The notes under the pieces are model-generated. The model searched no databases. It had not been told where the DNA came from and saw only the letters and a list, made by a program, of their open reading frames with translations. Positions 8,097 through 33,790 of a stretch of 34,093 bases of DNA are shown piece by piece. The translations under genes and the position numbers were made by a program. This DNA is from Tritrichomonas foetus. Lineage: Eukaryota > Parabasalia > Tritrichomonadida > Tritrichomonadidae. The number at the start of each line of letters is the position of its first letter. The first letter of the stretch is position 1. The stretch is from NCBI GenBank assembly GCA_001839685.1, contig MLAK01000755.1, positions 33,168-67,260 on the forward strand, written 5' to 3'.

Positions 8097-11012
8097 ATGA
8101 TAGGGCTCTACAACATTTCTCCAAATTCTTCATCAGAGGTTGAAGAAGATACTCTTTTAGGTCAAGATGTTCAAGAGCTTCGAAGCGAAATTACAAAGTT
8201 GAAAAAACAAATAAAAAGACTTCAAAATAATAATCAACGAAGCGCAGATCACCAAAACGATAAAATCATTGCATTAACTGATATAGTTCAAGCTATATTA
8301 AATACGCCTGATCAATACGATTTATCTTCTTTAGCAATGCTGAAAAAAATCAGAAACGAAACCGATATAAAGAAAATAATTCAAGGCCTTCAATCGTTTT
8401 TTCAGCAGGAATCGCCAGAATCCACATCAAGATTATGTAAACAGTTACAAGGTCATGTTCACTTTTTGATAAGACTTGCCGAAACACCAGAATTACAATC
8501 CTTATTTTTAATCTCCCAAAACAGCGGAAATGTGTTTTTGTCAGAGACCACCCGTCATTTGCTTCTCGAACAAGCCGCTCGAACCACGGAATTTTTGACA
8601 AATTATAATTATAATATTATTTCGGAAAATGGCCAGGAAATGATTTTATCTCCGATCCCCCAAATAGAAGAACAGCTCGGAAGAGAGTTCGATCCAAAAA
8701 GAAGGCTTGATGATCTTTGCAAATTCCTACAAAATTCAAATATCAGCGGCCAAGAATTGAATTCAATGCTTTGGCAAGAATTCGTGATCGTTGATGCTTT
8801 GAGGCGTTTTGTTGAAAAGATTTCTCAACAAAACGAACAATTGAGAAATACAAAAATAAATAAAACCAAACTCGAAGCTGATTTACGACAAAAGATTTAT
8901 CGTGATATAAAAAATGAATTGAAAGCTAAACTGGCCTCAAAAATCGAAGCAAAGCTTCGTTTATCACTCCGAAATGAAATCAAAGATGATGTACGTTTAG
9001 AATTAATTGAAGAAATTGAGTCGGAATTGAGACCGAAAATTCAAAAGGAAATCACTCCTCAAATTGAGAAAAGGATGATTGAAAAAGTTGTTAATGATGT
9101 TAAAAAAGATCTAAAACCAAAAATTGAAGAGAAAATGCGAATTAAATTAACACCAATTATTCAAGAGGAACTTAGAGAAAATGTTCGTGAAGAAGTAAAA
9201 AATGAAATCATGCCAGAACTGACAAAACAAATTAAAAAGAATTTGAGACAAAAAGTGACAGATGAATTAAAACCGCAACTAACTGAAGAAATCACTCAAC
9301 AATTAGAATCAACACTCAAGAATCAACTTCGTGAACAGGTTCGTGCAAGTGTGAAGATGGAATTACGCGAAGAAGTTGAAAATAAAGTAAGAGATGAAAT
9401 TCGCGACGAGGTTGAAGAAAAAATTAAAAAAGATGTTAAAAGGGAATTAAAACCAAAACTCACACAGAAAATAGAAAATGAATTAAGACCTCAACTCATC
9501 AAGCAAATTCACATTGATGTAGAAAATGAATTAAAACCGAAAATTTTGAAAGAAACCGAGCAAAATTTGAGACCAAAATTGGCCAAAGAAATTGAAAAAC
9601 AAATCAAGCCGAAAATTTCAGAAGATTTGAGGAAGACGATAACTATTGAACTCAAAAATGAATTGAAACCAAAAATTGAAGAAAAAATGAAACCCAAATT
9701 AATTGAAAAAGTGAAAATTGAATTACAGCCAAAAATTGAAAAGAATCTACGTCCAAAAATCGAAAAAGAAACAGAAGATAGACTTCGGAAACAACTTTCC
9801 ATTCAAATTGAAGAATTCCTTCGTGAAAAACTAACTGATGAACTCACTCAACAATTAACTAGAGAATTGAACAAGACTATAAAGAAGCAATTACAGAAAG
9901 ATAAATCATTCATCTCAAAAATTGAAGACCAAATAACTCCACAAATTAAAGAAAAAATGGAGAATGATTTAAGAAAGCAAATCAAAAAAGAATTGAAACA
10001 ACAATTAAGACAAAAAATCGAAAAAGAAGTGAAACAACAACTTTTTGAAGAAGAAGAAGAAAGACTTGCAAATCTTTCCGCTTCAGAAAAAGAATTGAGA
10101 AAGAAAATCAAAAAGGAACTTGAGCCAAAATTGAGAGCAAGACTGACTGTTGAAATTCGTGAACAGATTGAAAACGAATCAATCCAAAATGACAAAATTA
10201 AAGAAATTGAAGCAAGACTTCGCCTTCAAATCGCAAAAGAATTTCAAAACAATCAAACACAAAAACACCAATCAAACACTTTTTCACATCATAAATCATA
10301 CAATCACACCAGCGATTCATCGGTCATTGAATCAGGAAACAACTCAGAAAACAATGACTCAGAATACAACGCAGAAAATGAATCAAACATTCACACAAAT
10401 CATTCATCAACAAAGCAATCCAAGATTCATTCGAATAGTCAAATGAATGGTGAATTACATAGTGATTTGAGTGATGCCTTAAATGTTGAAGAGGAAGAAG
10501 ACCTGAATAATTCAGAAATCTTCATGAACATCTCAAAGAAATCCAAACAAAGTACGAATAAATTTAATGAGAGTTTAAATCAATCAAATAAAAGTGGCCA
10601 TAATTTGGAACTTTCAGTTTTTGCTCAGATTTGTGAAGCACTTGGATTAACAAAAACATTTTCAAAGCAACGATTTTACAAACTTGCAGGAAGGCTGGCA
10701 AATGATGTTTTGGAAGTTAGGCAACACTGCAAACAACCAAAAGTTAAGTTGCTTCAATTGTTTATAGATTTGAATGCTCAAGTTGGACATCTTGACCAGC
10801 TCCACACTCAAACACGCGCACTCCTTGTCAGACAGGCACACATCATTTCCGAACTGCGCCAGCAAATAGGTGTGAAATCGTGGACTGTGTGGGCACAAAG
10901 AATAAACGAAATGCTTGGAGGACAAAACTCTGACGTGGAAAATAGCGTGGAACTCAGATTGAACATTGAAGAACTGATCTCAGTGATTATGGCGCGAAAC
11001 CAGAATGCTTGA
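8097..11012 (+). CDS. Large protein with a strict four-residue (tetrad) periodic region; unknown function
   Basis: This is a 971-residue protein I do not recognise. Residues ~20-45 form a short heptad coiled coil. Residues ~50-245 look globular and helical (H-F-L-I-R-L, R-H-L-L-L-E-Q-A). Residues 256-599 are 86 uninterrupted tetrads x-x-x-hydrophobic, such as K-N-E-L, R-P-K-I, E-E-K-M. Two shorter tetrad blocks follow in shifted register (~606-649 and ~663-690). Residues ~710-850 are a Ser/Asn/His/Glu-rich linker, probably disordered. The C-terminal ~110 residues are again helical and well mixed (A-L-G-L-T-K, L-L-Q-L-F-I-D-L, L-L-V-R-Q-A-H-I-I). A structural or scaffold role is likely, but no catalytic motif, signal peptide or membrane segment is seen. 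ATG 8097 is the first in frame. The gene is divergent from the kinase and convergent with the ArfGAP gene. Confidence 0.85.
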   Translation: MIGLYNISPNSSSEVEEDTLLGQDVQELRSEITKLKKQIKRLQNNNQRSADHQNDKIIALTDIVQAILNTPDQYDLSSLAMLKKIRNETDIKKIIQGLQSFFQQESPESTSRLCKQLQGHVHFLIRLAETPELQSLFLISQNSGNVFLSETTRHLLLEQAARTTEFLTNYNYNIISENGQEMILSPIPQIEEQLGREFDPKRRLDDLCKFLQNSNISGQELNSMLWQEFVIVDALRRFVEKISQQNEQLRNTKINKTKLEADLRQKIYRDIKNELKAKLASKIEAKLRLSLRNEIKDDVRLELIEEIESELRPKIQKEITPQIEKRMIEKVVNDVKKDLKPKIEEKMRIKLTPIIQEELRENVREEVKNEIMPELTKQIKKNLRQKVTDELKPQLTEEITQQLESTLKNQLREQVRASVKMELREEVENKVRDEIRDEVEEKIKKDVKRELKPKLTQKIENELRPQLIKQIHIDVENELKPKILKETEQNLRPKLAKEIEKQIKPKISEDLRKTITIELKNELKPKIEEKMKPKLIEKVKIELQPKIEKNLRPKIEKETEDRLRKQLSIQIEEFLREKLTDELTQQLTRELNKTIKKQLQKDKSFISKIEDQITPQIKEKMENDLRKQIKKELKQQLRQKIEKEVKQQLFEEEEERLANLSASEKELRKKIKKELEPKLRARLTVEIREQIENESIQNDKIKEIEARLRLQIAKEFQNNQTQKHQSNTFSHHKSYNHTSDSSVIESGNNSENNDSEYNAENESNIHTNHSSTKQSKIHSNSQMNGELHSDLSDALNVEEEEDLNNSEIFMNISKKSKQSTNKFNESLNQSNKSGHNLELSVFAQICEALGLTKTFSKQRFYKLAGRLANDVLEVRQHCKQPKVKLLQLFIDLNAQVGHLDQLHTQTRALLVRQAHIISELRQQIGVKSWTVWAQRINEMLGGQNSDVENSVELRLNIEELISVIMARNQNA
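8862..9893 (+). repeat. 86 consecutive coding tetrads (12-bp period), hydrophobic at position 4
   Basis: Translated from 8862, the region divides into 86 four-residue units without a register break. Position 4 is Leu, Ile, Val or Met in 84 units; the exceptions are two threonines (units 58 and 76). Positions 1-3 are mostly Lys, Glu, Arg, Gln, Asp or Asn. Fifteen prolines occur and all are at position 2 (R-P-K-I, K-P-K-I, T-P-Q-I, M-P-E-L and similar). At DNA level the copies are divergent, so this is a protein-level constraint rather than a young satellite. Confidence 0.92.
9912..10166 (+). repeat. Two further tetrad blocks in shifted register
   Basis: After a six-residue break, eleven more tetrads run from I-S-K-I to K-Q-Q-L. 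A Glu-rich spacer follows, then about seven more (E-K-E-L to R-E-Q-I). Each block has one proline, again at position 2 (T-P-Q-I, E-P-K-L). Confidence 0.8.
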
Positions 11013-11404: not shown

Positions 11405-13632
11405 TTAAAATTGGAGAGTTCCCAATATATCAAGTGAGGCGTACTTCTGGTTCACACTTTGAGTTACACCTATATCAGTCTGCACAGGAGGTTTAAACTC
11501 CTGATCTGGAACTGTGTCTGGATTTCCATCCCAGTAAGGCAGAAACATCGCAACAAGATTTGTTTTATTTTGTGACATTGCGATTTGGTAAGGATGTGCA
11601 GCTTTTGATAGTCGAGGATCACAGTTGTTTTGAATTAAACATTCACATGCCTCAGCATGACCATAGTATGTTGCATAAGAAAGTGGAGACCAGCCAGCAT
11701 CATCTAAAATATCTGGTGTTTTCATATTTGTCGCGATAATGTGACAAATTATTGGGTCACCGAGTGATGCTGCAAGATGAAGAGGTGTATAACCACTGGT
11801 TTGCATAGGCTTGCCTTGCTTTCTGTGCAAACATAAAGCATGAAGAACAGCTGGAGCATTTTTACTCCGAATTGCTTCTAAAATATCAACTTCTTTGGAA
11901 TCATCCACAAATTTGCATTTGATATATTTCCGACGAATGAATTCTTCTCGTTCTTCTTTGGAACAATTTGGTTCAATTTTATTATGGCCAATGTTTGCTT
12001 CAAGTATCGAATTGGCATTTTCGTTATTTAAAGCTTCCAATGCTCGTTTTGAATAATTGTCTAAACGATCAAGAGTCAAAGAACGAACTTTGGAAATTGG
12101 TGTGAACGAACGATGAATTCCAGAACAGTTAATACAAATACAGACACCCCAATTTATGCAACACCAAGTTGGACATTCAGCGCCACAATCAGCACAGTGT
12201 TTGTTGCATTCAAGTGCTAAAATATCACTCACTTTATCATTTTTACTCTGAACTGATTTCTCACTTTTTTCATCAGAATGATCAAGTAAATATTGAATGT
12301 TGTTTTTAATGACCGCCATCCATTCATCCATATCATATTTGGTTAATGCTTGTAAAGTGTATGTTTTACCAGTAGATATGATGGTGAAAGTGAAACGACG
12401 ATCAGAATCGACAATAGGTTTAATTGTTGTGAGTAAAAGTGGTAATTCACCTTGTGGTTTATCGCTATCATCAGCATTATGATAATAGGCAAGTTTATGA
12501 TTCTTACAAATGAAGTAACGCTTTTGCCAACTTTTTGTAAAGCCACTTCCCTTTTTCCATAAGTAGCCTTCATGTTCGAGAGCAGGTGTTGAAGGGAAGT
12601 CAACTTTCAATTTCTTCCAAAAAACATTATATACACTTTCAAGTGATTTTTCTTGTATACGCGTCTCATTTTCATGTTTTTGGAGTTGTTTCTGTAAATC
12701 TGCAATTGCAAATTGCAAAGTTTCAAATGACTTTTTTTGCTCTTCGAATTCAAATAAACATTCACGGTATGCAACACCAGCAAGATTAATAAAAGCAACA
12801 AACTGAATATTAGAAATATAAAATAAAAAATTATATATAATAATGAATTTCAACATTTCAAAAAATATTCATCATTATTCGTATTACAAGTTAAATATTA
12901 ATATTAAAAAGATAACAAAGAAAATATGATCAATGATTAATAATGACGATAAACGATTAATAATGACGATAAACGATTAATAATGACGATAGATGATGAA
13001 TAATGACGATAGATGATGAATAACGATGAATAATGATGATAGTGTTGAAATTAAATTATATATAATCAAAAGATACATACGTGTGCTAAAACTTCAATAA
13101 GTTTCCTCCTCTCAACCAAATCAAGTGATCGCATAAACAAATAATCGGAAAAACAAGCTTTTTTGTGACATTTTTTGAGTCTCACATCTGCTTCATCTAA
13201 TTCATTCTGTGGTTTCTTCTTTGATATCATTGTGTAGTTTTCGACAGTTTTGAAATATGCATCAATTGCTTTTGTTGCTTCTTTTCCTTTTTCTTCGACC
13301 GAAGTGATGTCATTTTTGACGTATTCTTTGAGCGGAGTTATGATGTGATCTTGAATTTGTTCGTAATGAATTTTTAACGAAGATTGGAATTTATTCAAAA
13401 GATCGGAAATTGCTTTCAATGCTGGATCGCTCTGAAACTCTTGATAATCTTGGAATGACGCAGAAAGCTTTGACATGCACGAACAGAGCTGTGCGCCGAC
13501 TTCTGAATATGCTTGGAATGTTTTCGATGTAGCATTGATGTGTTCTTTGAGTTGGGTCATTTCTTTCATTCGTACTGATAAAGAATTGAGGTGTAGGGGA
13601 GATAGATTTAGGAATTCAACATGATCATTCAT
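11405..13632 (-). CDS. BAR-PH-ArfGAP-ankyrin protein (ACAP/centaurin-beta-like), two exons
   Basis: Exon 1 is 13081-13632 and exon 2 is 11405-12802, giving 649 residues. Domains in order are: BAR (~1-240), whose helix 3 is cut by the intron; PH (~265-370), beginning H-E-G-Y-L-W-K-K-G and ending in the W-M-A-V-I helix; an ArfGAP zinc finger (~395-510); and two to three ankyrin repeats (~515-605; T-P-L-H-L-A-A-S and W-S-P-L-S-Y-A). The finger is C-x2-C-x16-C-x2-C with the downstream G-I-H-R arginine that stimulates GTP hydrolysis. ACAP-type proteins sense membrane curvature through BAR, bind phosphoinositides through PH and inactivate Arf GTPases on endosomes or the plasma membrane. The splice joins ...V-L-A-H to F-V-A-F-I in phase 0 and restores the BAR helix. 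The ATG at 13632 follows an in-frame TTG that I do not accept as start. Confidence 0.93.
12803..13080 (-). other. Phase-0 spliceosomal intron, 278 bp, in the ArfGAP gene
   Basis: The donor reads CAC|GTATGT and the acceptor reads TCTAATATTCAG|TTTG on the minus strand. GTATGT is the trichomonad donor consensus. The last 12 bases keep the layout of the published trichomonad ACTAACACACAG block, with 8 of 12 identities including CTAA and CAG. Reading through the intron meets a stop three codons after the donor, and splicing joins two halves of one BAR domain in frame. Confidence 0.88.
12935..13041. repeat. 20-bp minisatellite inside the ArfGAP intron
   Basis: The unit TAATGACGATAAACGATTAA, and its variant TAATGACGATAGATGATGAA, repeats with a period of exactly 20 bp for about five copies, ending in degenerate GAT-rich copies near 13041. 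It makes up over a third of the intron. Confidence 0.88.
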
Positions 13633-19586: not shown

Positions 19587-22500
19587 TCATATCACGTTTT
19601 CTGAAATAGGTTCAACAATTATATTTCCATTCTGTGTAACAACAATTAATGATTTAAGATCCTTGCTATATTTCATTGCAATTATTGGCGACATGCACCT
19701 TTTTATGACAATTGAAAGTCTTAAATCGAAAGCTTCACAAGTAACAATTTTGCCTGATTCATCAGCAACAGCCAGAAAGTCAACACCATCACAATCACTG
19801 AATTCAATCATTAGATCAAGCTCAAATGATACCTTATTATATGCCAATGGCTTTCCAGAAAGTGTATGAGAAAATAAAGCTTTGATAACTTCTCCATTTT
19901 CCACTTTTTGTGCATAAGTCACAATGAAACCAAAGTTTTCTGTTATCACAATATGCTTTGGTGTAAATCCGCCTAATTCGATAACAGTCATAGAGAATCC
20001 ACTTTCCAATGGTGCAACAATCAATCGTCCTTCAGAACCAATAACAATTGTATGGAAAGATTCACTAATTGCAGCACATTTTGCAGGACTGTGATAAAAT
20101 CGATGTTTCAGAATTGGAGAGGCTAAATCTTTTTCATTATATATATAAACAGATGATGTATTAGGTGTCGTTAAAAGATGCGAATCTGAAGTAGCAATAC
20201 AATTAATACTTTCTTTAGCATCAAAGATGAAATTGGTATTAATATTTAATATTGATAATTTCATTCGCCTATCTAAAACCGCAATATAATGATCAGAAAG
20301 TTGTGAAAAACGAGCAGTTTTCCAGGTTTCATTGAATTGTTCAATAACATTTTCACTAGTTTCAATCTCATAAATATCAGTGTTTTCTTGTGTTGTAACT
20401 TTACCCTTTGAAAGAATGCCGTTAACACCAATCATGTTGATAGAAAATGAATTAATATCATCTTTTGATAACAAAATAGAAGCAAATAAAATACAACCAA
20501 TGTTTGTTTTGGCAAGTAGAGATTTCTGGATACGCATATTTCTGGGACTTCTCATCGTTAAAGTTTCATTAAAAACTTTAGAGACCCATAAATAAAGACT
20601 AGCAGAAACATCATCAGATTCTAAAGCTTTTCTTCGATTGTAATAGTTTCCTTTTTCTATATAATTATCAGCAGTACAATGATTTCCTTCTGCAAGAGTT
20701 TTATAAACATCAGAAAGTTTGATAATTTCTTTACCAAAAAGGTTATTTGGTGTAACTCTTCCAACACTACTGTGTGAAAATCGATGCATATTTACATCTT
20801 GATAAATTGGATGAGACATTTTCTTTGTCAACTGATTCGCAAATGGTGCATTAAAATGAACATCAGGCCTTCGTGAATTCGAATTAAATGACTTCAACAT
20901 ATAATTGCTACGTGCTTCACTAATATTAGTCACATATTCTGAATCAATTGGCTTTGAATCATCATTTTGGTCTTCAATTTCAGATTCATCATTTTCATCA
21001 TTATCATATTTATTTGGGGGATATTCATTTTCAGTTTGATTATTCATGGTTTGGGTATCACCATTTGAAACATTATGCATTATATCCACATTTGGATGGT
21101 TGTTGTTATCGCTGTGAATCACTTCATCGGATTCTGGTTCAATTAGAAGAAGTGGTAATATAGGAAGTTGGTGTGGAAAATTAAAACTACGATTTTTGCG
21201 TCGATTAAGTTTCAATAAAAATTCAAATGTGGTAATTTCTCGTCTGCGCCATTGTTTGAATATATCTACTGTTTCAATTTTTGTATGCTGCTTAAGGAGT
21301 TCACGCACAACATCACGAACATCAGGCTTCAAAAAGTTAATAAGAATCGATTTCCCGTCTTTCATGAAAATTTCAATTCCAGAACAGTTTCCTTGAATTT
21401 CAAATGTATTGAATTCAATAATATTTGAAAGAATGTACGTCTTAGATTTATAAGAATTAAAATGAATAATTATTGAATCTTGAAAAATTGCGACAGTTGC
21501 ATTTGTTATTCCAGTTACACGAATGATTTGACAAGGGACCATTAAAAGTGACAAAGGATCTGGTTCAAAAGGAAGTTCAGAATCAGCTTCAATGTTCCAA
21601 TTCGGCTTTTTGGACATTCCAGTTTTTGATCGTGCAGGAAATCCACATCCACAAAGTCTCATATCTTTTTTAAGATAAACATTATTGGAAGGATTATCTT
21701 GTCTTGGATTTATAAGTTTTTTATTCATAGCTTTACTTTCCCATGGTGCAAAAGGAAGTGTTAAACAGCGACTAAGTCGATGCCAGCGTTTTTCATTGAT
21801 CATTCTTTTACGAATGATTCTATGAATCGTTTCATTTTGGGAAATATTGCATTTATTTAATTGATCATTCATAATAATGGGGATATCTTTATAAATATTA
21901 CCACAATTAATAATGAATAATTGCGTGTCGTCTAAGAACGGCTGAACAGATTGATTTGTCCATTGATTCAATGATTTTGTAAAGTTTTCAAAAATATTAT
22001 CATCAACTTTGATGTTTTTCGTTGTTGATAATATTTTTGATTCAATCCCAAATCTGATCATTTTCTGACAAAGGATTCCAACGTAAGGATCGATTCCAAA
22101 TTCTTTGAACGGTGAATGAAGAGTAAAATCTCGAAAATGAGCTCGAACAAATTCAGTTTGATTATTAATTAGATAAAAAGCAAGAGTTAATTTAAAGTTC
22201 AAATTATGAGTGATATTTTTCTTTTCAAATAGCATGATAATTTTCATTGCGAGGCCTTCATCAAGCCAATTTTGATCTTTATCAAATCTCAAACCGAATC
22301 TCATATTTTGTTCTTCCATTGAAAATGATTCATATTTTGAAAATATTTCACTCATCGAAAGATTTTCATTCTCTTCATCAGTTTTTTCCTCCTTTGATGA
22401 AGAAAGATTAGAAAAAACTGAGCAATTTTCATTTTGTCCACGAAAAAAGATGAAGTTTTTGGCCATTTGAATATAAAATTTAATAGTGTTTGAATCAACA

Positions 22501-25500
22501 GTTTCCATTGTGAGTAAAATATCAGCTAAAACAATTAAAAAATCTGCTTCAAGTTGTCTAATTTTATCATTATACATTCTATTGACAATAGTAATCATTA
22601 TAAACATGTATTTCCATTTTTCTATGGAACAATTTGCAATAAATGACAAGACTGAATATCTTGCTTCTTTTTGCAAATGATGTGCAACTATAAAAGGAAA
22701 TAAAATATCATTATCATTCAAATATTTGGGTGATGGATGAATTAAATCAGTAATTCTAATCATTGAATTGTTATTTAGAACTTTACCACAAATACAACAA
22801 AGTGGGAATAATTGTGGTGCAATATTTGTGAGTCTTGCAACGTCTGTAAACAATTTTTGATCAACAACATTTTCTGGTAAGATTTTTAAAATAATAATAA
22901 CCTCTTCACGGAGAGATATATTTGTGATAAATTTCTTATGAATCATATGAACAATAACATCAATAGCTATTCCACAAATTCCCGGAATATTTAATAAAGT
23001 ATGAAGAAATGGTAAAAATTTAGGTTTTTCAGCTAAAGATGCAAGTGGAGAGGGTTCCATATGGGCAATTTCTTTTAGTACATTTGCAGCATCACATGCA
23101 TGATCATACGAAAGATTATCAGCTGCTAATTTATTAATATAGCTTATTAATAAAGCAAAATCTGAAAAACTGAAGGAAATTGTTGCCACAAAAGTTAAAA
23201 TCTGTGAAAGAATAGTTCTTATTTTGCTTACAATATGATTTTGCTGATCCAAATTTACATTCATTACATCATTTTTATTAAAATATATCATTATTTGGTT
23301 AAGTAATGATGAAAAAGGCATCATTGTTGAAACACAAGATACAAATGAAGGGAAAAGAGTTCTCATCCAATGTTTTACAATTAATAAGAAATTTTCAATT
23401 TTCGCATGAATCCAAAGGTCGAAATTCGTCATAATAGAGCCAAACAATTGTTGTTTTAGGGAATCTGTTTTAAGCATTTGCATTAATGTAAAGAATTTCA
23501 GATATAAATGGTAAGTTGATTGTGATCGATCATTTTCTTGAAGTAAATAGGCCACTGTTGAAAAACAGTCTGTATTAGCAAATTCAAGTTCCACACTTGA
23601 ATCAGTAACCAGCGCCGATGAAAATACTTCGAATGCAGAATCAAGCAAACTATCAATTACAGTGAATAATGGAAACAAAATAGTCAAACCAACTTGACCT
23701 GTTAAAACACGAGAAAAGCTTCGATTTTGATGTTCCAATCGATTGTTTCTATTATAAACATATATTGGCGAAACTGGTGCTTGATCAATAGAACGAATTC
23801 CTTTAGAAAATAACTCAGTCATTTGAGCTTCAGATAAAATTGGATAAATTGCTACTGGTCCCAAAACACAAGGAATTTCAGAATCAATTGAATCATTTAG
23901 TGATCCACCAATTCGGATTTTAACTGGGCCATTTATTGAATTCTTACCATTTTTTTCGATAATTTCATCACCATTGTTATTCACCATAGCAACTACATAA
24001 TAACAAGGCGGAATTATACTATAAGTTATTGTTACAAATGTCCATTGTCTCAATTCAACGGGCGTCATAATTTGTTCAGATTTAGACAGTGGATTCTCAT
24101 AATGCGAAACTCGTAAAGAATTGTATGCTAAAAATAAATGAAAATAGTGACCATTCAAATCCTGAAAAGATATAATTGATGGATAGTATTGTGTTGATGT
24201 TCTTTCTAAATAAATCCAAAAGGCAAGTGTAAATCCATTCGTTACAGAAAAATCAGCTTGTGGCTCAAATGAAGAAGATTTATTTAATCGAATTACAGTT
24301 AATGGCTCTTTTATATCAGCTGCAATCATTGATACAAAGCATTTCATAGCAGATTGAAAATAAGGTGGTACATCGCTTCCATCAAATTGAAAAAGAGAAA
24401 CATATTTTTCAACAACACATGGTGCAGATACACTTCCTGCAATTATGGATAATAATTGAAAACATAAACTTTCATATTCTATGTCATGTCCTTCTTTAAT
24501 TGTTGATATTAAAAATAAATCTACATCACCTTCTCGACATTTTTGGCAATTTCCAGTATGGTATTTACACAAATCTATTATAAAATTCAAAGAATCACCA
24601 AATTTAGGTGTATGGCGAAAAGTCATCAATAATAACCAAGTTGCAAATGGATGTCGAATAACAAATGATGTTGTTGATGTTGATAATCTATCACCTGCCA
24701 TTAACTGAACAATTTTGTTGAAAAATTGCTGATTAAAGTTTGGATTATAAGCAATTTTTATTCCATCAAATAATATTTCAAAATGAAATTTTTCAATTTT
24801 AAAAAAGTGAGAAGTTTCAGTCAAAAATTGAATCGAATCAAGAATAAAAGTAACACTTTCATTTGATGAATCGAGTTTCGAAAATCCTGAAAACAAAAGT
24901 GGTGAAATACTTGCAAATATTTCAATTAATGCAATTTGTTGATAGGAAATCATATCACTCATCATTTCCAGTAATTCATTAGCTAATATTAGTGATTTTG
25001 TTTCAGGAAAAGAAAGTTCAACTGTTCCAATAATCAATGAAAATCCTTCGCCAATTAATTTTTGTTGTTTTACTAATTCCAAAGACAAAAACTTTTTCAA
25101 TTGAGAAAAAATGAAATTTCGAAGAGGTATTTCAAAAGTTAAGCTTAATAACGCTCTCACAAACACAGAATCAGAAAAGAATTTCATTGCACATGGAATA
25201 TCGGCAAAACAATGCGATAAAAACAACAATAAAGTTGTTCTTATTTCGTCAATTTGTTCATTTCCTTCAAGTCTTGCTTTTTGATAATGAACTAAAGCAT
25301 TACTTATCAAACGAACAAGTTTTGTTGAGGTTGCAAAAAGTGGTAAAATTGGTTTTAGATTCGAGATACACCGTCGAATCAATTCTCCAAATAAATCAGG
25401 ATAAATTATCACACTTTTTAATAAAGAGAAAAATACATTTGATCCTTCATAAGCAAAAAGCTCTAGGGCTCCAGCACGTAGTGAGTTTAACTCAGACATT

Positions 25501-26795
25501 GAATCATTACAAATTACAGATGGATCAAAAATAATTGTATTATTCAGTATTTTTTCAATTGATGGAAGTGAATCTCCTTTTAAGTTCAAATATCTAAAAG
25601 AAAAAATTAAAATTGCATACAGATTTATAATTTTTGGATGATTTGAGTTTTCTTCAATAACACGAAGTAGAGCTTTACCATACTCAATAGAAAAGTCTGA
25701 ATTATCACCAATAATTAATAGAATTGAACGAACATCTGCTAAAATATCTTTTTCTATCAAAATTTCAATATTTTCTTGTTCAGAAAAAGGTATAAAATTG
25801 TTAATATCAAAACCATTTAAAAAAGTGGGGATTTGGGGAAATTGAATTGTGATGCCTAATGTATGTTCAGGTACATTATATATTTTAATGTTGGATTCGT
25901 CGCCTTTTGGTAAAACTATTTCAAACTCAGATTTTAATGAAATATCTGCAATAATAGCAGTTAATGTAATAACCATTTGAATCACTGTTTCTTTTGATAA
26001 AATTGGTGAAAGCACAGAAAACAAGAGTAGTGAGGTTTTATCAAGCTTTGAAAGAAAGGGTGAAAGTGCAACAAGGGTTTCTTCAGCTAGATGATGCGGA
26101 AATTCATCCTGACGTTTTGAAATGATTTGTAAAAGAATTTTAAAAAAAGATTGAATTAACTCATTTTCTTCATTTCCTTCATTTCTATCGTTTGACATGA
26201 ATTTGCAAATAATATATGGAAAAATAGCAAATGACGATTCTGGGAGAGTTGCTGTTTGAAAGAAAAAAGATCTAATGAGAGGTATGAATTGATCGAAATT
26301 TTTTAAATGACAACATTCAAAATACGATGCTGATATATACAAAAAACAAGATGAAGGAAGGGTCGAATTAGTTAAAGTAGAAATATATAGCAACGAATCT
26401 AGAATAAAAATTATTGATTCGATATTCGACGAATCAATACTATTTTCTTTCATATAATAAATTTTCCACGATATAAATAAATGCAAAATGTAATATAATG
26501 CAATTTCAGCTTCAGATGTCGTGATATGTGATCGATTTAAAAAAAAGCGAACTTTATCGTCGTTATAAGAAAAATCGTTCATTATCTCTTTAACAATATT
26601 GTCGAGTAACGGGTCATTTGTGTTTGATGATTTTATTTGATCTAAAATTTTGGGGTTAATAAATGGCAGGGGATTTTGTTCGACAAAATTGATTAGTTCG
26701 AGGTCATTTGTTAATTTGTTAACTTTTGGCAACGGCTTCATACATAATATCTTGACAGTTGGGTCAGGAAAGAATTGTAGAAGAGGTGCTGTCAT
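19587..26795 (-). CDS. BEACH-family scaffold (LvsA/LRBA/neurobeachin-like) with degenerate BEACH domain
   Basis: This is a 2402-residue protein. The N-terminal ~830 residues are alpha-helical armadillo/HEAT-like repeats. Residues ~830-1000 form a concanavalin-like (LamG-type) domain: G-F-T-L-A-F-W-I-Y-L ... Q-W-T-F-V-T-I-T-Y ... I-R-I-G-G. More helical repeats run to ~1720. A PH-BEACH-type domain (~1750-1825) is followed by the BEACH opening W-R-R-R-E-I-T-T-F-E-F-L-L-K-L-N ... P-I-L-P-L-L-L (~1845-1885), an Asn/Asp/Glu-rich linker (~1888-1950), and a remnant of the BEACH end A-L-E-S-D-D-V-S-A-S-L-Y-L-W-V (~2060). WD40-like repeats close the protein (~2110-2402). This is the order of the LvsA/NBEA/LRBA/WDFY3 group, which acts in lysosome-related traffic and membrane dynamics. 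The central BEACH core is missing. The ATG at 26795 has a TCATA word 39 bases upstream. Confidence 0.88.
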   Translation of the reverse strand: MTAPLLQFFPDPTVKILCMKPLPKVNKLTNDLELINFVEQNPLPFINPKILDQIKSSNTNDPLLDNIVKEIMNDFSYNDDKVRFFLNRSHITTSEAEIALYYILHLFISWKIYYMKENSIDSSNIESIIFILDSLLYISTLTNSTLPSSCFLYISASYFECCHLKNFDQFIPLIRSFFFQTATLPESSFAIFPYIICKFMSNDRNEGNEENELIQSFFKILLQIISKRQDEFPHHLAEETLVALSPFLSKLDKTSLLLFSVLSPILSKETVIQMVITLTAIIADISLKSEFEIVLPKGDESNIKIYNVPEHTLGITIQFPQIPTFLNGFDINNFIPFSEQENIEILIEKDILADVRSILLIIGDNSDFSIEYGKALLRVIEENSNHPKIINLYAILIFSFRYLNLKGDSLPSIEKILNNTIIFDPSVICNDSMSELNSLRAGALELFAYEGSNVFFSLLKSVIIYPDLFGELIRRCISNLKPILPLFATSTKLVRLISNALVHYQKARLEGNEQIDEIRTTLLLFLSHCFADIPCAMKFFSDSVFVRALLSLTFEIPLRNFIFSQLKKFLSLELVKQQKLIGEGFSLIIGTVELSFPETKSLILANELLEMMSDMISYQQIALIEIFASISPLLFSGFSKLDSSNESVTFILDSIQFLTETSHFFKIEKFHFEILFDGIKIAYNPNFNQQFFNKIVQLMAGDRLSTSTTSFVIRHPFATWLLLMTFRHTPKFGDSLNFIIDLCKYHTGNCQKCREGDVDLFLISTIKEGHDIEYESLCFQLLSIIAGSVSAPCVVEKYVSLFQFDGSDVPPYFQSAMKCFVSMIAADIKEPLTVIRLNKSSSFEPQADFSVTNGFTLAFWIYLERTSTQYYPSIISFQDLNGHYFHLFLAYNSLRVSHYENPLSKSEQIMTPVELRQWTFVTITYSIIPPCYYVVAMVNNNGDEIIEKNGKNSINGPVKIRIGGSLNDSIDSEIPCVLGPVAIYPILSEAQMTELFSKGIRSIDQAPVSPIYVYNRNNRLEHQNRSFSRVLTGQVGLTILFPLFTVIDSLLDSAFEVFSSALVTDSSVELEFANTDCFSTVAYLLQENDRSQSTYHLYLKFFTLMQMLKTDSLKQQLFGSIMTNFDLWIHAKIENFLLIVKHWMRTLFPSFVSCVSTMMPFSSLLNQIMIYFNKNDVMNVNLDQQNHIVSKIRTILSQILTFVATISFSFSDFALLISYINKLAADNLSYDHACDAANVLKEIAHMEPSPLASLAEKPKFLPFLHTLLNIPGICGIAIDVIVHMIHKKFITNISLREEVIIILKILPENVVDQKLFTDVARLTNIAPQLFPLCCICGKVLNNNSMIRITDLIHPSPKYLNDNDILFPFIVAHHLQKEARYSVLSFIANCSIEKWKYMFIMITIVNRMYNDKIRQLEADFLIVLADILLTMETVDSNTIKFYIQMAKNFIFFRGQNENCSVFSNLSSSKEEKTDEENENLSMSEIFSKYESFSMEEQNMRFGLRFDKDQNWLDEGLAMKIIMLFEKKNITHNLNFKLTLAFYLINNQTEFVRAHFRDFTLHSPFKEFGIDPYVGILCQKMIRFGIESKILSTTKNIKVDDNIFENFTKSLNQWTNQSVQPFLDDTQLFIINCGNIYKDIPIIMNDQLNKCNISQNETIHRIIRKRMINEKRWHRLSRCLTLPFAPWESKAMNKKLINPRQDNPSNNVYLKKDMRLCGCGFPARSKTGMSKKPNWNIEADSELPFEPDPLSLLMVPCQIIRVTGITNATVAIFQDSIIIHFNSYKSKTYILSNIIEFNTFEIQGNCSGIEIFMKDGKSILINFLKPDVRDVVRELLKQHTKIETVDIFKQWRRREITTFEFLLKLNRRKNRSFNFPHQLPILPLLLIEPESDEVIHSDNNNHPNVDIMHNVSNGDTQTMNNQTENEYPPNKYDNDENDESEIEDQNDDSKPIDSEYVTNISEARSNYMLKSFNSNSRRPDVHFNAPFANQLTKKMSHPIYQDVNMHRFSHSSVGRVTPNNLFGKEIIKLSDVYKTLAEGNHCTADNYIEKGNYYNRRKALESDDVSASLYLWVSKVFNETLTMRSPRNMRIQKSLLAKTNIGCILFASILLSKDDINSFSINMIGVNGILSKGKVTTQENTDIYEIETSENVIEQFNETWKTARFSQLSDHYIAVLDRRMKLSILNINTNFIFDAKESINCIATSDSHLLTTPNTSSVYIYNEKDLASPILKHRFYHSPAKCAAISESFHTIVIGSEGRLIVAPLESGFSMTVIELGGFTPKHIVITENFGFIVTYAQKVENGEVIKALFSHTLSGKPLAYNKVSFELDLMIEFSDCDGVDFLAVADESGKIVTCEAFDLRLSIVIKRCMSPIIAMKYSKDLKSLIVVTQNGNIIVEPISENVI

Positions 26796-27316: not shown

Positions 27317-30300
27317 TTACCAAAATGGACACCATCCTTGAAACATTTGACATAAATTTTTCGGATTTGTCGCTTCATGAATTAACAAATCAACTTGTTT
27401 GCTTACTGAAAGCATTTTTCCTTTGTCAAAGTCATCTCCAGTTAGTTTATCACGAATTCTACCTATGATTTTAATTGCTGAAAGGTCATTTGCATCTTTA
27501 GTCGTCCATTGAAGTAAAGGATCATAAATAAAAGCCTCTAAAAGTGCCATGATTTGTTCACCATTTTCTCTCATTATTTGCATCACATTTTCGCAGCAAA
27601 GTCGAAAAGTTCCTTCAATTTTAGAAACTTCTAAAGCATTCACCATTAAAGGTGATAATCTAAATGGAACCTTTTCTGGATATCTACTTCTATGCATAGC
27701 AACTTCAAAACAATCACCAAAATCAATATGAACAAGTTTCATTGTTCGATTAGTTACCATAATGTTTGAAAGATGACGATCACCTAAACCTAAAATGTAA
27801 CCAGCCATTGAAGTGGTTGCAAGAGAAGTTGTATAAATTGTTCGTCGTTCAAGCCAGTCTGCTGAATCAGTTGAATATTTAAGAGTAACTTTTCGAATAT
27901 CATCACCAGGGGTTGCCTTAATACCAAGTAAAAATGCTCTTTCACGTTGTTCAAGAGTAGCAGAATCATAATTTGGACAATATTTAGCAATTTTTGTCAT
28001 TTCTGCATTAGCATTTCGGCCTATACTCATTCTATAATGCCTAATTACTTCAAAGAGTGTTTGTGTATCAGTAACCCAACCAATTAAGCCAACTTTCTTG
28101 GAAAGTGGAACAACACGATATGCAGTTAAACATAAATTTGAAGCAAGTGGAACATCTGAAGCTTTAATAACATCACTAATATAAGTAAACAGCTGCATGA
28201 CACGTTCATCAAGACGTGTATCTTCATTCGGTTTCAAAAGGAAACTATATAAGTTACCATCAGTACCTCTTAAAGAAATTCTTCTTGGACGCTGCTTCGA
28301 ATTAATGATGATCACATCTTCACAGACGGATTCGATTCGAATAAGAGGTTTATCGAAATTATATGTTCCAGGAATCGTCAATTCTGTATTTCTTATTGAT
28401 TCAGCAAGTGAAACAGAAGCATCAGAAAGATCGAAATCATTCATCTGAGTGAGCATTGGCTTTATTATTCGGAAAATGTTAACATAAATACTCCAAGCTT
28501 GGTGGAATGATAGCATATTACTTGTATCTTTATAATCTTTAATTAATTCTTCAGCTTGAAGAAGCATAGAGCCGAATTGTGAAACAAATGAAACTTCAAA
28601 TAGAGTTTCAGGTGGTCGAGAAACAAGCTCATGTAATGGTAATAATAGATCAATTGTAGCTTGTGGATTTTTATGAAGAACAAATTGTTTGGATGTTTCA
28701 TCAATTGCGGCAACCCATGTTTCCCACCAACTACTTGCAATTCTTCTCATTTCAGAAGCAAGAAGAATGGCTTCATTTACAAGTGTCGGTGTTTTTGTGC
28801 GCATTCTATCAATTATACTTGTGGCAATTGGTCCTTTAGTAACTGATTCACTCAGATAAGGGACCATTAAACTATATAAAACAGTTTGTGGATGAGAATC
28901 AGCAAGCATTAAAAGTAATCTTTCAAGAATCTTATTTAGTTCCGCACTACTTAATTTAGCAATAATTTGTGGAAGAAGGGAAATCCAATAATTTATTGGA
29001 ATTTTGGTAAGATAACTTTCGAAAAGTGAATAAAGTGGTGTAGATCCATGTTGAAATATGATTGAAATTACTCGAAGTGTAAACAGCATTGGGTTTGGTG
29101 GTGATAAAGTTAGTCCTGTCAGAGTTGCTTCAAGGGCTGTTTTCAGAATTTCTGGATCAGGTGATGATTCATACAATGAAATATTAATTTTACTCCATTT
29201 CATCCAAACTAAAGGTGAATTGGGCAAATATTGGATTGTTTTTTGGAAAATAACCGATGCCTTTTCCAGTGATCCTTCAGAAATGTAACAATCACCAAGA
29301 ACACATAAATATTTTGGTAAAAGTGGAGATGATTCAGGAAGTTCAGCAACAAGTGAAGCCAGATCCCTTTTATGCATCAAGCATTCTGCAAATTTAACTT
29401 CATAATCATTTTTATCAACTTTATCAAAGGCAATTTCGGCAAGTTGTGTCATTCCATTAAGATTTGCTTCTAATTCGAGAAATTCGTAAAAGTATGAATC
29501 AATTCTCTTTTTATCTAAGTAAAGTGAACGAATACAAATCATTTCGAATAATTCTTTCGGTGTGGATCGAAGATGCTCAAAACGATCACGCCATTCAGTA
29601 CAGATCTTTTCAAATGCAGCAGAAGCTACATTCCTTTCAGTAGGTACGGCTGAAAATCGTTTTGGTTCATTTCGTTTCATTTCAATGATTTCTCGAAGTT
29701 CTGATAAAATGGATGCTTGACAGAAATCGCTAAAGCACTTTTCGTATTCATCTGCAATCAATGGAAATAGCTTTGAGCCATAAATTGTGTTTAATTTATC
29801 AATTAATGTTTCAGCTTCATCGAGATCATTTCTAATTATTTTCAAAATAATAATGTAAAACAAATTATCATTATTAGAACTATCTAAACATGAAGCAATT
29901 TCTATAAATTTATCTATCTTAAAAAGATGAAATGCAGCAGAGGCTGCAAATTTAGATTTTTCATCACCGACAAATTGTTCAAGATCTTTAAAGCGTGATA
30001 ATTGTTCAAGGCATTTCATTTTACCACGTCTGAATTCTTCGTTTGTTGGATCATCTTCAAGTCGTTCATCATAAATAACAAGTGCATCATCCCAAAGTCC
30101 AAGTCTTTCAGACAAGTTTTCTTGGAATTCATCAACATTAGCACATCTTAAAACTCCGCTTGCTGCGAGTTGAAGTCCTAAATTGAGATTAAGGAAAATT
30201 AAATCTTCTGCAGAGTGTTGCTGATCTTCAATAAATGCATATTCTGTATATCTGATTGCTTGAGGAAGCAATCCAGAAACAGAAGCTTTTTCACCTAAAA

Positions 30301-33300
30301 TAGACCACGGAATTGGAATAGGCATACTATTTATTTCTAAATATTCAACAACTGTCATAAAATGTCGAACAATAGATACTGGAACTTGTGGTTGAATGAG
30401 AACCGATACAAGAACTTGCATTAATTGAGTATCAGTTCTTTTTAATGCACAACAAAATGCATATGTGATAGGAAACAGAGAATTTCGAACAGCTATATTT
30501 TTTTCTGCAAGAGCAGCGCATGAAGTTATTGCTTTTGAGGGTGAGGTACTTAAGAAAACAGTAACAAGATCATCAAACCAATAACTCCATTCAAACGAAT
30601 CCCAATCATCTGAAGGTAATTTGAATTGGGGAAGTTCAGGAGTTCTCTTTATTTTATTTTTATTACTCGTTGATGGAGTTAATGTGGATTCACTTTTCTT
30701 TGGTTCTCTTCCAATTTCGGTAAATTTAGTCAATAAATTTGTCGGAATTGGTTGTCCCTGTGATAAACAATTAATAAGGAGCTTCAGATCTGTTAATATT
30801 TTGAGATCAAAAATAGAAGCAATTTCTTGAAGATAAACAAGGAAATTTTCTCCCATTTGAATACCAATTACAATAATTACATTACCAGCTGATTGAATCA
30901 GTCTTTCATTTCTTTGACAAATAAAATTTAAAGTACGAATTACCTCAGAGCAGTATCTATGGCAATTAGAATAAATCATTATTTCTCGTAAAGTTAAAAG
31001 TGCCTCAATTACAACAATATCATTATCACTTTGAATTTCAATCCATGATAATAATGCGGGAATTATCAAATAATCAACAGTTTTCATTAAATGACCAAAA
31101 GAAATAAATTTCTGGAAAATTTCATTGACAACTTTTGGTGATTGTGTCTTGATATCAGATAAGAAAAGTGTTACAACTCTATAAATATGATGGGCGAAAA
31201 TTTCAGGAACTCGAACAGATATCCATTCAATTGTACGAAGTAGTAGGCTTGTATCAAGCTTTCCCCAATTATTACAGACAATATCTATAATATGTGGTAA
31301 TAAAGGAGCAAGTTTATCACCAAAAACAGTCAACAGTGAAATAATATTCTGCATAATGATTGCAACTGTACCTGAACCGCTGTTCAAAATAATAGTATGG
31401 ATTTTATCAAGGAGAATTTCTTCAACGCCTTCACCAACATCTTTATAACTAAGTAAAATTGCTAAAAGTGCTTCAATTGCTGATGAATGAAGAGTTGAAA
31501 GTGATTCTTCATTCATTATATTTAATAAAATTGACAACGATACAAAAACTGCTGTATTCGTCATAAATGTCTCTGGTTTACTGTCAGACGATTTCTGGTT
31601 GATTAAAGTTAAAGCACCAAGAAGAGATTGTGTGGCTGATTTCACTTTACTTCCTGAAATAATGGCTTTCATGGTTGTTGTATTAATCGCACCAATTTTT
31701 TCAATTAGATTTAATAATAAATGACTTTCAATTTGATTTTTAGATAATTCAAACAATCTCGAAATGATAGAAGGATGATCATTGATAATTAATGAACGAA
31801 AATTAGTGAACTTTAATGAAGAAGCGAGGAGTTCCAATGTTGCATTAATTCTTTTTGCAGTTGCATGAAGTGATAAATTAGCATCAATATGATTCGCAAG
31901 TTGACATAAATCTGTCGACGATGAAGCAAATTGAAGTAAATTTGCAATTAATCTTAATGATGAAGATTTCAAATTTTGAACTTGAAGAAGGCGCCTTAAA
32001 AGAAATTGTGCGAAAGGTCGAACAAGCGAGGATTTCTGTTGTGTTGTAATTAATAAACAATAAATATGAGGACCATTTAATGCTTCAGTATGATCAACAA
32101 TTTGTACTAACTCACTGATATAATCAGAAATTAAAGAAGTTGCTGAATTAATGGTGCATAATTTTTGAAGTGCAGAATAACGAATGGTATAAATTCGATC
32201 ATGAAGTAAAGCATAAAGTGGCTCAACTAATTCATCAGATGGTTCAATACTATCAATGACTGTTAATCTTAATGGTTCTGATACTTCAGTTGATATATAT
32301 GAAATTAATTGCATTTTAATTTCAGGAAAGTTCTTTTGTTGAGAAAGTAAAAACATAACGGCGCTTTTTCGTACTTCAAAGTCTGAATCATTCAAAAAAC
32401 TACGATATTGAAATAAAAGATGAATTGATAATTCTGATCGATTGAAATTGAATTGTGTCATTGAATCAAAAGCACTTATTACAGCTAATTTTGATGTTTG
32501 TAGAATTAAAGATGATGAAAGAATAGGTAAAATTCGATTTCTTATTTGAGTTGCTTTTTGAGGCCATAGTTGGCAGTATCTGACAAAAGAGCTCATTGAA
32601 GATGCACTATTTGGTCGTTCTAAAATAGAATCGACAATAGCATGAAAATTATCGTCTCGTGGTGACAAAAGCGATAATAATGCAAACGACGTATCTGCAT
32701 TTTCAACATGAGATGCTTGAATTTTCTTAATAAGATGAATTCTTTGTGGGTAGTCCTGTATTTGTTGGCCAAGTAAGAATCCAAAATGACCAAGTGATTT
32801 AAATATTATTGTATCGCATTTATTGAAATCTATTTTATCGAAAATCGCAAAATAGAATTCAAATTCAGGTGGATGAAAAATTTCTGGTGAACAAAAAAGT
32901 GCGATTGGCAACAAACAAATTAAATGTGATTGATTTTTCTGAGAAACATCTGGAAGGGGTGGGCTTTCGAAATTAAAAGCATATGATATTGTTTTATTAT
33001 GTGAAAGAACCCATAAAATCGCCTTCACAAAATTTGCTGATGGTGGATTTGACTCATTCACCAAATTTTTCACAATTGTATTACATAAAGTTTCAATATG
33101 TAACGAATATGGTGAGTTTAACAATTTTAGAGCTGAACTTAACGCTTTAGCAGCTTTTTTTGTCACGTAATGTGATTGGTGTTGAAGAGAGCGAATAAGA
33201 AGGCTATTAATATTTTCAAAAGATGATGTCATAGCTGATGGGAATTCCCGTAAAAACAAATCAAGCATATCCATAGCGGCAATTATTGTATCTTCATCAG

Positions 33301-33790
33301 GCGAGCAATACCATGCCCATATTTTGTCTCTCAGCGGTTGTAATGTCAAATTTAATGTTGTTCCTAACGAATTTGATAGCCACTTCAGAATTCTTTCCAG
33401 ATACGAAATAGCGTTTGGATCTTTTGATGGAGGAAGTTGAGGTAATTCGCGAGTAATTCTCATGGCTTTTGAAAGTTTGCTACCGATATTTGCATCAATG
33501 AATAAAGTAAGGAATAATAAATAAAGTGTCGGGTTATTATTCATTGATGAAAGCGACGTTGCAGCAAAAATTTCTGTAATAAAATGTTGCTCGTTATTCA
33601 TGGATGTTTGAAGGCGGTATTGCGAATCTACAAAATTCAAGAAAGATTTAATCGAAAAGCGGTACTGAATTGAATTAGGATGAGAAGACGCAAGTTTGAC
33701 ATGATAGACATGATATGCGAATGTGTCTGGTGGGGGTTGTGGAGGAAGCTGAACCTTTGATGCGTCCTTCTCGCTTCCTCTTCTAAACAT
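27317..33790 (-). CDS. TOR: Target of rapamycin (TOR) PI3K-related kinase
   Basis: This is a 2157-residue protein, shorter than typical TOR (~2450). HEAT repeats fill ~1-1130 and FAT ~1150-1640 (including L-W-D-D-A-L-V-I-Y-D-E-R-L). An FRB-like bundle spans ~1685-1795 (W-W-E-T-W ... Q-A-W-S-I-Y). The kinase lies at ~1820-2100: the lysine of F-L-L-K-P (~1853), catalytic loop G-L-G-D-R-H-L-S-N-I-M (~2000), H-I-D-F-G-D-C-F-E (~2022). The FATC end is N-L-C-Q-M-F-Q-G-W-C-P-F-W, terminating on the conserved tryptophan. G-W-C-P-F-W and the FRB identify TOR rather than ATM, ATR or DNA-PK. TOR couples nutrient state to translation and growth through TORC1/TORC2. The insert between kinase and FATC that carries regulatory phosphosites in mammalian mTOR is absent here. 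A proline-rich N-terminus (~15-21) precedes the HEAT repeats. ATG 33790 is the first in frame. Confidence 0.96.
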   Translation of the reverse strand: MFRRGSEKDASKVQLPPQPPPDTFAYHVYHVKLASSHPNSIQYRFSIKSFLNFVDSQYRLQTSMNNEQHFITEIFAATSLSSMNNNPTLYLLFLTLFIDANIGSKLSKAMRITRELPQLPPSKDPNAISYLERILKWLSNSLGTTLNLTLQPLRDKIWAWYCSPDEDTIIAAMDMLDLFLREFPSAMTSSFENINSLLIRSLQHQSHYVTKKAAKALSSALKLLNSPYSLHIETLCNTIVKNLVNESNPPSANFVKAILWVLSHNKTISYAFNFESPPLPDVSQKNQSHLICLLPIALFCSPEIFHPPEFEFYFAIFDKIDFNKCDTIIFKSLGHFGFLLGQQIQDYPQRIHLIKKIQASHVENADTSFALLSLLSPRDDNFHAIVDSILERPNSASSMSSFVRYCQLWPQKATQIRNRILPILSSSLILQTSKLAVISAFDSMTQFNFNRSELSIHLLFQYRSFLNDSDFEVRKSAVMFLLSQQKNFPEIKMQLISYISTEVSEPLRLTVIDSIEPSDELVEPLYALLHDRIYTIRYSALQKLCTINSATSLISDYISELVQIVDHTEALNGPHIYCLLITTQQKSSLVRPFAQFLLRRLLQVQNLKSSSLRLIANLLQFASSSTDLCQLANHIDANLSLHATAKRINATLELLASSLKFTNFRSLIINDHPSIISRLFELSKNQIESHLLLNLIEKIGAINTTTMKAIISGSKVKSATQSLLGALTLINQKSSDSKPETFMTNTAVFVSLSILLNIMNEESLSTLHSSAIEALLAILLSYKDVGEGVEEILLDKIHTIILNSGSGTVAIIMQNIISLLTVFGDKLAPLLPHIIDIVCNNWGKLDTSLLLRTIEWISVRVPEIFAHHIYRVVTLFLSDIKTQSPKVVNEIFQKFISFGHLMKTVDYLIIPALLSWIEIQSDNDIVVIEALLTLREIMIYSNCHRYCSEVIRTLNFICQRNERLIQSAGNVIIVIGIQMGENFLVYLQEIASIFDLKILTDLKLLINCLSQGQPIPTNLLTKFTEIGREPKKSESTLTPSTSNKNKIKRTPELPQFKLPSDDWDSFEWSYWFDDLVTVFLSTSPSKAITSCAALAEKNIAVRNSLFPITYAFCCALKRTDTQLMQVLVSVLIQPQVPVSIVRHFMTVVEYLEINSMPIPIPWSILGEKASVSGLLPQAIRYTEYAFIEDQQHSAEDLIFLNLNLGLQLAASGVLRCANVDEFQENLSERLGLWDDALVIYDERLEDDPTNEEFRRGKMKCLEQLSRFKDLEQFVGDEKSKFAASAAFHLFKIDKFIEIASCLDSSNNDNLFYIIILKIIRNDLDEAETLIDKLNTIYGSKLFPLIADEYEKCFSDFCQASILSELREIIEMKRNEPKRFSAVPTERNVASAAFEKICTEWRDRFEHLRSTPKELFEMICIRSLYLDKKRIDSYFYEFLELEANLNGMTQLAEIAFDKVDKNDYEVKFAECLMHKRDLASLVAELPESSPLLPKYLCVLGDCYISEGSLEKASVIFQKTIQYLPNSPLVWMKWSKINISLYESSPDPEILKTALEATLTGLTLSPPNPMLFTLRVISIIFQHGSTPLYSLFESYLTKIPINYWISLLPQIIAKLSSAELNKILERLLLMLADSHPQTVLYSLMVPYLSESVTKGPIATSIIDRMRTKTPTLVNEAILLASEMRRIASSWWETWVAAIDETSKQFVLHKNPQATIDLLLPLHELVSRPPETLFEVSFVSQFGSMLLQAEELIKDYKDTSNMLSFHQAWSIYVNIFRIIKPMLTQMNDFDLSDASVSLAESIRNTELTIPGTYNFDKPLIRIESVCEDVIIINSKQRPRRISLRGTDGNLYSFLLKPNEDTRLDERVMQLFTYISDVIKASDVPLASNLCLTAYRVVPLSKKVGLIGWVTDTQTLFEVIRHYRMSIGRNANAEMTKIAKYCPNYDSATLEQRERAFLLGIKATPGDDIRKVTLKYSTDSADWLERRTIYTTSLATTSMAGYILGLGDRHLSNIMVTNRTMKLVHIDFGDCFEVAMHRSRYPEKVPFRLSPLMVNALEVSKIEGTFRLCCENVMQIMRENGEQIMALLEAFIYDPLLQWTTKDANDLSAIKIIGRIRDKLTGDDFDKGKMLSVSKQVDLLIHEATNPKNLCQMFQGWCPFW

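Follow-up and report, generated by a model that had tools for sequence, protein, structure and literature searches.

A conserved four-residue repeat with position-locked prolines in a parabasalid protein related to long heptad coiled-coil proteins

Introduction

What structure can be built from a polypeptide in which a hydrophobic residue recurs at every fourth position over 344 residues, and in which every proline occupies the same position of the repeat? The question is raised by a protein of the parabasalid Tritrichomonas foetus encoded in the stretch of DNA analysed here (34,093 nucleotides; contig MLAK01000755.1 of assembly GCA_001839685.1, positions 33,168 to 67,260 of the forward strand; hereafter the window). 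The middle region of this protein, which we call the tetrad rod, consists of 86 consecutive four-residue units in one register. The geometry of α-helical coiled coils is described as having a lower limit of 3.33 residues per period and an expected upper limit of about 3.9, with 4.0 inaccessible, and the most extreme natural right-handed period given there is 3.8 (PMC4786415). This value replaces the 3.67 at which a first-pass annotation of the window had placed right-handed coils.

Here, we describe an analysis of the tetrad pattern, of its conservation in relatives, of its origin, and of the protein family in which it is found. The tetrad observation is real, conserved, and unusual. We then weigh the structures that the pattern might form and the role that such a protein might have in the cell.

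Results

Within the rod (residues 256-599), 84 of the 86 units carry L, I, V, or M at position 4 (L40/I27/V14/M3) and the other two T; all 15 prolines stand at position 2, with a chance of 2.9e-8 if prolines were random over positions 1-3. The recounted 84 of 86 and 15 of 15 are identical to the values of the first-pass annotation, as is the presence of one proline, again at position 2, in each of two later tetrad blocks (residues 606-663 and 664-694). Proline-bearing tetrads of the rod never stand next to each other (a chance of 0.010 if they were placed at random). K, E, L, I, R, and Q are abundant in the rod, which contains no glycine and has a LIVMFAWY share of 31%; a search of its sequence for a higher-order period gave nothing convincing.

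The annotation had also foreseen a spectral peak at 4.0 rather than at 3.5 or 3.6, and Fourier analysis of LIVMF residues bore this out, with a power of 81.3 at period 4.0 and of 96.6 at its harmonic of 2.0, as against 0.1 at 3.5, 0.3 at 3.6, 0.1 at 3.667, and 0.6 at both 3.75 and 3.8; the top maximum among 500 shuffles was 11.3. The rod thus lies outside the coiled-coil range of 3.33 to about 3.9, and it lacks the 11/22-residue period of apolipoproteins (power 0.1 at 3.667 and at 11). Sliding 60-residue segments across residues 241-600 have periods of 3.96-4.07, and two segments at the later register shift have periods of 3.80-3.83. In the protein, LIVM recurs at every fourth residue for up to 57 units without a break, compared with 10 or fewer in 2000 shuffles of it and with 2-8 in other open reading frames (ORFs) of the window (eight tested of the 11 with at least 150 amino acids). 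The layout of the protein, P0001, is as follows, with confidence of prediction given as the predicted local distance difference test score (pLDDT).

8097..11012, + strand: uninterrupted ORF of 971 amino acids, the tetrad-rod protein (ORF reading)
8154..8294, + strand: probable N-terminal heptad zipper, residues ~20-66 (spectrum and an AlphaFold2 helix at 17-68; weak)
8322..8846, + strand: conserved helical N-terminal domain (NTD), residues ~76-250 (aligned in relatives; hhalign; AlphaFold2 pLDDT 76)
8862..9893, + strand: tetrad rod of 86 tetrads, residues 256-599 (tetrad count, Fourier)
9912..10178, + strand: two further tetrad blocks, residues 606-663 and 664-694, in shifted register (tetrad segmentation)
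10278..10601, + strand: S/N-rich linker, residues ~728-835 (AlphaFold2 pLDDT below 50 for 723-834; alignment gap)
10620..10991, + strand: conserved C-terminal helical domain ending in WxxWA...ELRxxIEE, residues ~842-965 (alignments)

Wholly α-helical, the rod would be about 52 nm long. The putative zipper has a spectral peak at 3.52 with a power of merely 4.5 (residues 1-60), and in alignments the linker, which we take to be disordered, is much shorter in relatives, or absent. P0001 matched no Pfam family at E<=1.

Protein searches with P0001 returned seven matches and then ten, from T. foetus, Histomonas, and also metagenomic sources; the named relatives are T. foetus TRFO_36346 (P0004) and Histomonas meleagridis GPJ56_004247 (P0006). 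A literature search that covered few subscription papers found no publication on the rod protein or on the T. foetus and Histomonas locus tags. Tetrads were counted in P0001 and eight relatives, leaving out P0010, which matched 5% of the query, and the unrelated P0011, and the segmentation model treated proline as any non-hydrophobic residue, so that positions 1-3 were equal for it. All nine proteins contain tetrads, and 99 of their 102 prolines are at position 2: 17/17 in P0001, 8/8 in P0009, 15/15 in P0004, 17/18 in P0006, 11/13 in P0002, 7/7 in P0003, 9/9 in P0005, 12/12 in P0007, and 3/3 in P0008, where tetrads occur merely as scattered blocks. The register that the annotation had proposed to follow in homologues is therefore kept by them, though less strictly.

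Overall identity is about 30%, and conservation is position-specific. In an ungapped block of 126 residues shared with the nearest relative, P0009, six of six prolines fall in the same columns out of 32 position-2 columns (hypergeometric 1.1e-6), and position 4 is LIVM in both proteins in 31/31 columns; the non-proline residues at position 2 are identical in 8/26. By inspection, the remaining two rod prolines of P0009 correspond to residues 453 and 465 of P0001, given a deletion of 32 residues (eight tetrads). Rod length ranges from 309 to 439 residues, or 46-66 nm if helical, among seven proteins including P0001, a set without P0008 and without P0009, the chain of which stops early.

Tetrapeptide-like arrays (NNQM, QPQL, KPDI) occur in several unrelated ORFs of the same genome, and we therefore tested the rod for origin from a 12-bp repeat. 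Pairs of the same residue at lags of 4, 8, and 12 codons use identical codons as often as in synonymous shuffles (z 0.2, 0.3, and 1.0). The rod is not a recent 12-bp expansion, and this absence of codon memory argues that the pattern is old and maintained at the protein level. Among the other arrays, one ORF (L008, C1047:78649-79017, - strand) has 24 KPDI/KSDI-type tetrads, and in 14 of these position 2 is proline; its N-terminal part looks SET-domain-like by eye, no family search having been made. The metagenomic protein P0011 has 42 tetrads without proline at residues 316-483, followed by a non-repetitive C-terminal part; it is an independent case of period 4, unrelated to the rod protein.

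Paralogues in the T. foetus genome revealed the wider family to which the rod protein belongs. Three of them retain both the NTD and the C-terminal region; in two (L003 and L005) no tetrads were called, and the third (L002) has 13, none with proline. With L003 as query, the genome yielded 15 places. One is L003 itself, two lie in C359 (L002), one in the window protein, and the other 11 in long ORFs of 987-1535 amino acids, with E values down to 4.4e-8. Nine of these long ORFs were read (L034-L041 and L043). The best periods of these nine are mostly 3.5-3.6, with five segments in three proteins favouring 4.0, and their longest tetrad runs are of 4-5 units and never more. Comparison by hhalign of their inner helical domain with the window NTD, reported for the NTD alone, gave a probability of 97.9 and an E of 3.6e-13 over 124 columns. 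A Pfam scan of five long proteins produced a single match, beneath the cut-off.

The C-terminal region links the same proteins, its WxxWA part reaching the long heptad proteins through the paralogue L003. Residues 824-962 of the window protein match the paralogue on C549 at E 2.6e-16, and a 13-row alignment of the region contains one invariant and one nearly invariant tryptophan. The hhalign comparison of the WxxWA region (49 columns, E 6.8e-7) is not independent, because one of the profiles already includes the window row. Used as query, the C-terminal domain of a single long protein matched the genome in 38 places at E 0.01; this number counts the query and L003, and three of the matches are no stronger than E 0.002. 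The ORF frames at these places are 929-1677 amino acids long, apart from L003 (423).

Thus, the window protein shares with the long proteins a homologous helical domain and the C-terminal WxxWA...ELRxxIEE region, whereas its middle is made of tetrads rather than heptads, and it is at most a variant member of this family. From these comparisons we read the rod as a variant carried by one branch of a large parabasalid family that lacks annotation and whose members are long heptad coiled-coil proteins (~1,100 residues). In a tree of 21 NTD rows, the rod proteins group with L002, L003, L005, and P0008 (98/94); within this group rod and rod-less rows are intermixed, and the starred branches force at least two changes. 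The tree was rooted at its midpoint and several of its branches are long. We take the history of the rod to be a single gain followed by several losses, with two gains also possible.

Structure prediction was carried out with AlphaFold2. With 12 aligned sequences, helix was predicted over most of the rod, at a mean pLDDT of 57 and a predicted template modelling score (pTM) of 0.22; block means of pLDDT within the rod range from about 40 to 71, with breaks near prolines 321, 505, 525, and 533. The model weakly supports a helical rod, and its confidence is too low to decide the annotation's test by structure prediction either way. Predicted alone from 21 sequences, the NTD is entirely helical (mean pLDDT 76, pTM 0.42), and its comparison with the PDB gave no informative match. 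A profile of the rod tetrads had 11 PDB matches up to E 10.

Elsewhere in the window are a TOR-like kinase with FAT, FRB, kinase, and FATC domains (27317-33790, - strand), a BEACH-domain protein of 2402 amino acids whose best stretch covers only profile positions 1-59 of 276 (19587-26795, - strand), and, between two ORFs, a tandem array with periods of 20 and 40 bp (12928-13039).

Discussion

The reading that we favour, tentatively and at somewhat less than even confidence, is that the window encodes a filament protein of the cytoskeleton, with an α-helical rod that bears a right-handed spiral stripe, is bent toward it by conserved prolines, and is wound around sister chains or a partner. On an α-helix of 3.6 residues per turn, a hydrophobic position 4 would form a stripe that turns by 40 degrees with each tetrad in the right-handed sense; the first-pass annotation had reasoned in the same way that such a stripe differs from that of an ordinary coiled coil, and published coiled-coil geometry supports it (PMC4786415). 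Position 2 is separated from the stripe by 160-200 degrees, on the polar side of the helix, and proline kinks would therefore all bend one way, toward the stripe, and so aid wrapping. The helix would then wind right-handed around sister chains, our first choice, or around a partner helix or filament, and the resulting steep rope could act as a spacer or cable. We consider it possible but doubtful that the rod represents a new kind of helical fibre in nature, namely a superhelical rope of right-handed sense whose period is truly 4.0, made possible by conserved prolines on its outer face, each kink aiding the wrap.

Simple geometry offers some encouragement. By a Crick-type estimate, a two-stranded rope of period 4.0 built from a normal helix would have a radius of curvature of 15-18 Å, and one built from an underwound helix a radius of 42 Å at 3.75 or 67 Å at 3.8 residues per turn; over these two values the superhelical pitch would be about 85-110 Å. 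With a bend of 26 degrees per proline, one kink per 12-17 residues would give a radius of 40-57 Å. The agreement of the kink radius with that of the underwound helix is suggestive. The natural right-handed coiled coils, namely the hendecads (11/3), pentadecads (15/4), and the YadA repeat (19/5), are likewise helical rods with periods above 3.63 and a right-handed twist, but their periods are 3.67-3.8, whereas the window rod combines 4.0 with recurring prolines (PMC4786415).

Several observations weigh against this interpretation. A period of 4.0 is beyond the range described for continuous coiled coils, so that coiling with sister chains would be strained (PMC4786415). Proline-free stretches of 57 and 60 residues within the rod also keep 4.0; the prolines are thus not required for the period. 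AlphaFold2 returned neither a confident structure nor packing, searches of solved structures gave no convincing homologue, and position 4 is looser in relatives (LIVM at 81/97 in P0002). The existence of paralogues with the NTD and either no rod or 13 proline-free tetrads implies that the wider family can do without the rod, and the genome search with the C-terminal domain of a long protein missed the window protein among its 38 places.

The chief rival is an arrangement like that of Sac3 and Sus1, in which the rod would be a single straight α-helix serving as scaffold for several small wrapped partners, each holding about 25 residues of stripe. The Sac3 CID helix of TREX-2 has a hydrophobic residue every four residues, forming a right-handed stripe of ~40 Å pitch around one α-helix, with two sites of ~25 residues around which Sus1 wraps (PMC2726291). 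The annotation knew of no family with such a signature; that statement must now yield to this published precedent. The rod, with 84/86 hydrophobic fourth positions in what is predicted at low confidence to be a helix, has the same kind of stripe, and EnY2/Sus1 homologues occur above the Pfam cut-off at three places in the T. foetus genome. Two of these homologues (C96 and C713; L045, L046) are near-identical and the third (C179; L047) has diverged. Yet the rod has 86 tetrads in place of two short sites and would require about 14 partners, Sac3 tetrads often have two hydrophobic residues and those of the rod one, and no Sac3 chain was among the 11 PDB matches of the tetrad profile. In the accessible description of Sac3:Sus1, moreover, the Sac3 helix has no locked prolines and the proline kink that is noted lies in the wrapping partner, whereas here the prolines are in the rod (PMC2726291). 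We regard this scaffold as unlikely. Somewhat less likely again is a rod that only sets a distance and winds around nothing, as a charged helix exposed to solvent or a flexible spacer, its tetrads being the relic of an ancient 12-bp repeat. Tetrapeptide-like arrays in unrelated ORFs, the variable length of the rod and its absence from some paralogues, and the low confidence of the predicted helix would all fit a spacer, but position-specific conservation outlasts an overall identity of ~30%, proline columns are retained while their neighbours drift, there is no codon memory, and a neutral spacer has no need of a hydrophobic fourth residue in nearly every tetrad.

An ordinary coiled coil in which delocalised stutters accommodate the pattern appears very improbable: the relatives are heptad coiled coils and right-handed coils up to 3.8 are known (PMC4786415), but over 344 residues the spectral power does not exceed 0.6 at any of the periods 3.5, 3.6, 3.667, 3.75, and 3.8. 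Exchangeable apolipoproteins have amphipathic helices punctuated by prolines, and short helices of this sort, broken by prolines on a membrane or lipid surface, are to our minds the least probable structure for the rod. Apolipoprotein E chains did occur in the profile search, at non-significant E values of 8.4 and 8.9. The stripe, however, is one residue wide and rotates off a flat surface, the proline-free stretches go on rotating, and the low LIVMFAWY share further makes a helix lying on a membrane, one of the possibilities raised by the first-pass annotation, a poor fit. A variant helical rod is also more likely than the undescribed solenoid fold that the annotation suggested, because the rod is flanked by the domains of an otherwise ordinary heptad family.

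With the proline-bent, right-handed rod as our preferred reading, where might the protein act? We infer a cytoskeletal role: it is probably a structural protein of parabasalids, in a filament or rootlet, and the long-ORF family as a whole provides candidate filament proteins. The trichomonad costa is reported to contain large helical proteins without known domains; a review gives 100-150 kDa for its main proteins and a periodicity of 42-60 nm for type B costae, and it reports that a single T. vaginalis protein expressed in Tetratrichomonas gallinarum formed striated filaments (PMC13071381). Costains and other costa proteins resemble the rod protein in being large, mostly helical, and without known domains, as judged from their description (PMC13071381). 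The calculated rod length of 46-66 nm would match the costa periodicity loosely. The rod protein differs from costa proteins in that it occurs in Histomonas, which is not known to have a costa. Kinked coiled-coil filament proteins are described as lining the doublet microtubules of T. vaginalis (PMC12041511), and their architecture is other than that of the window protein's rod.

Little is known of the striated fibres of trichomonads, for which this large, un-annotated parabasalid family is a candidate. Should the rod form a true fibre, the known limit of α-helical periodicity would move from 3.8 to 4.0, and prolines, usually breakers of helices, would serve to build curvature.

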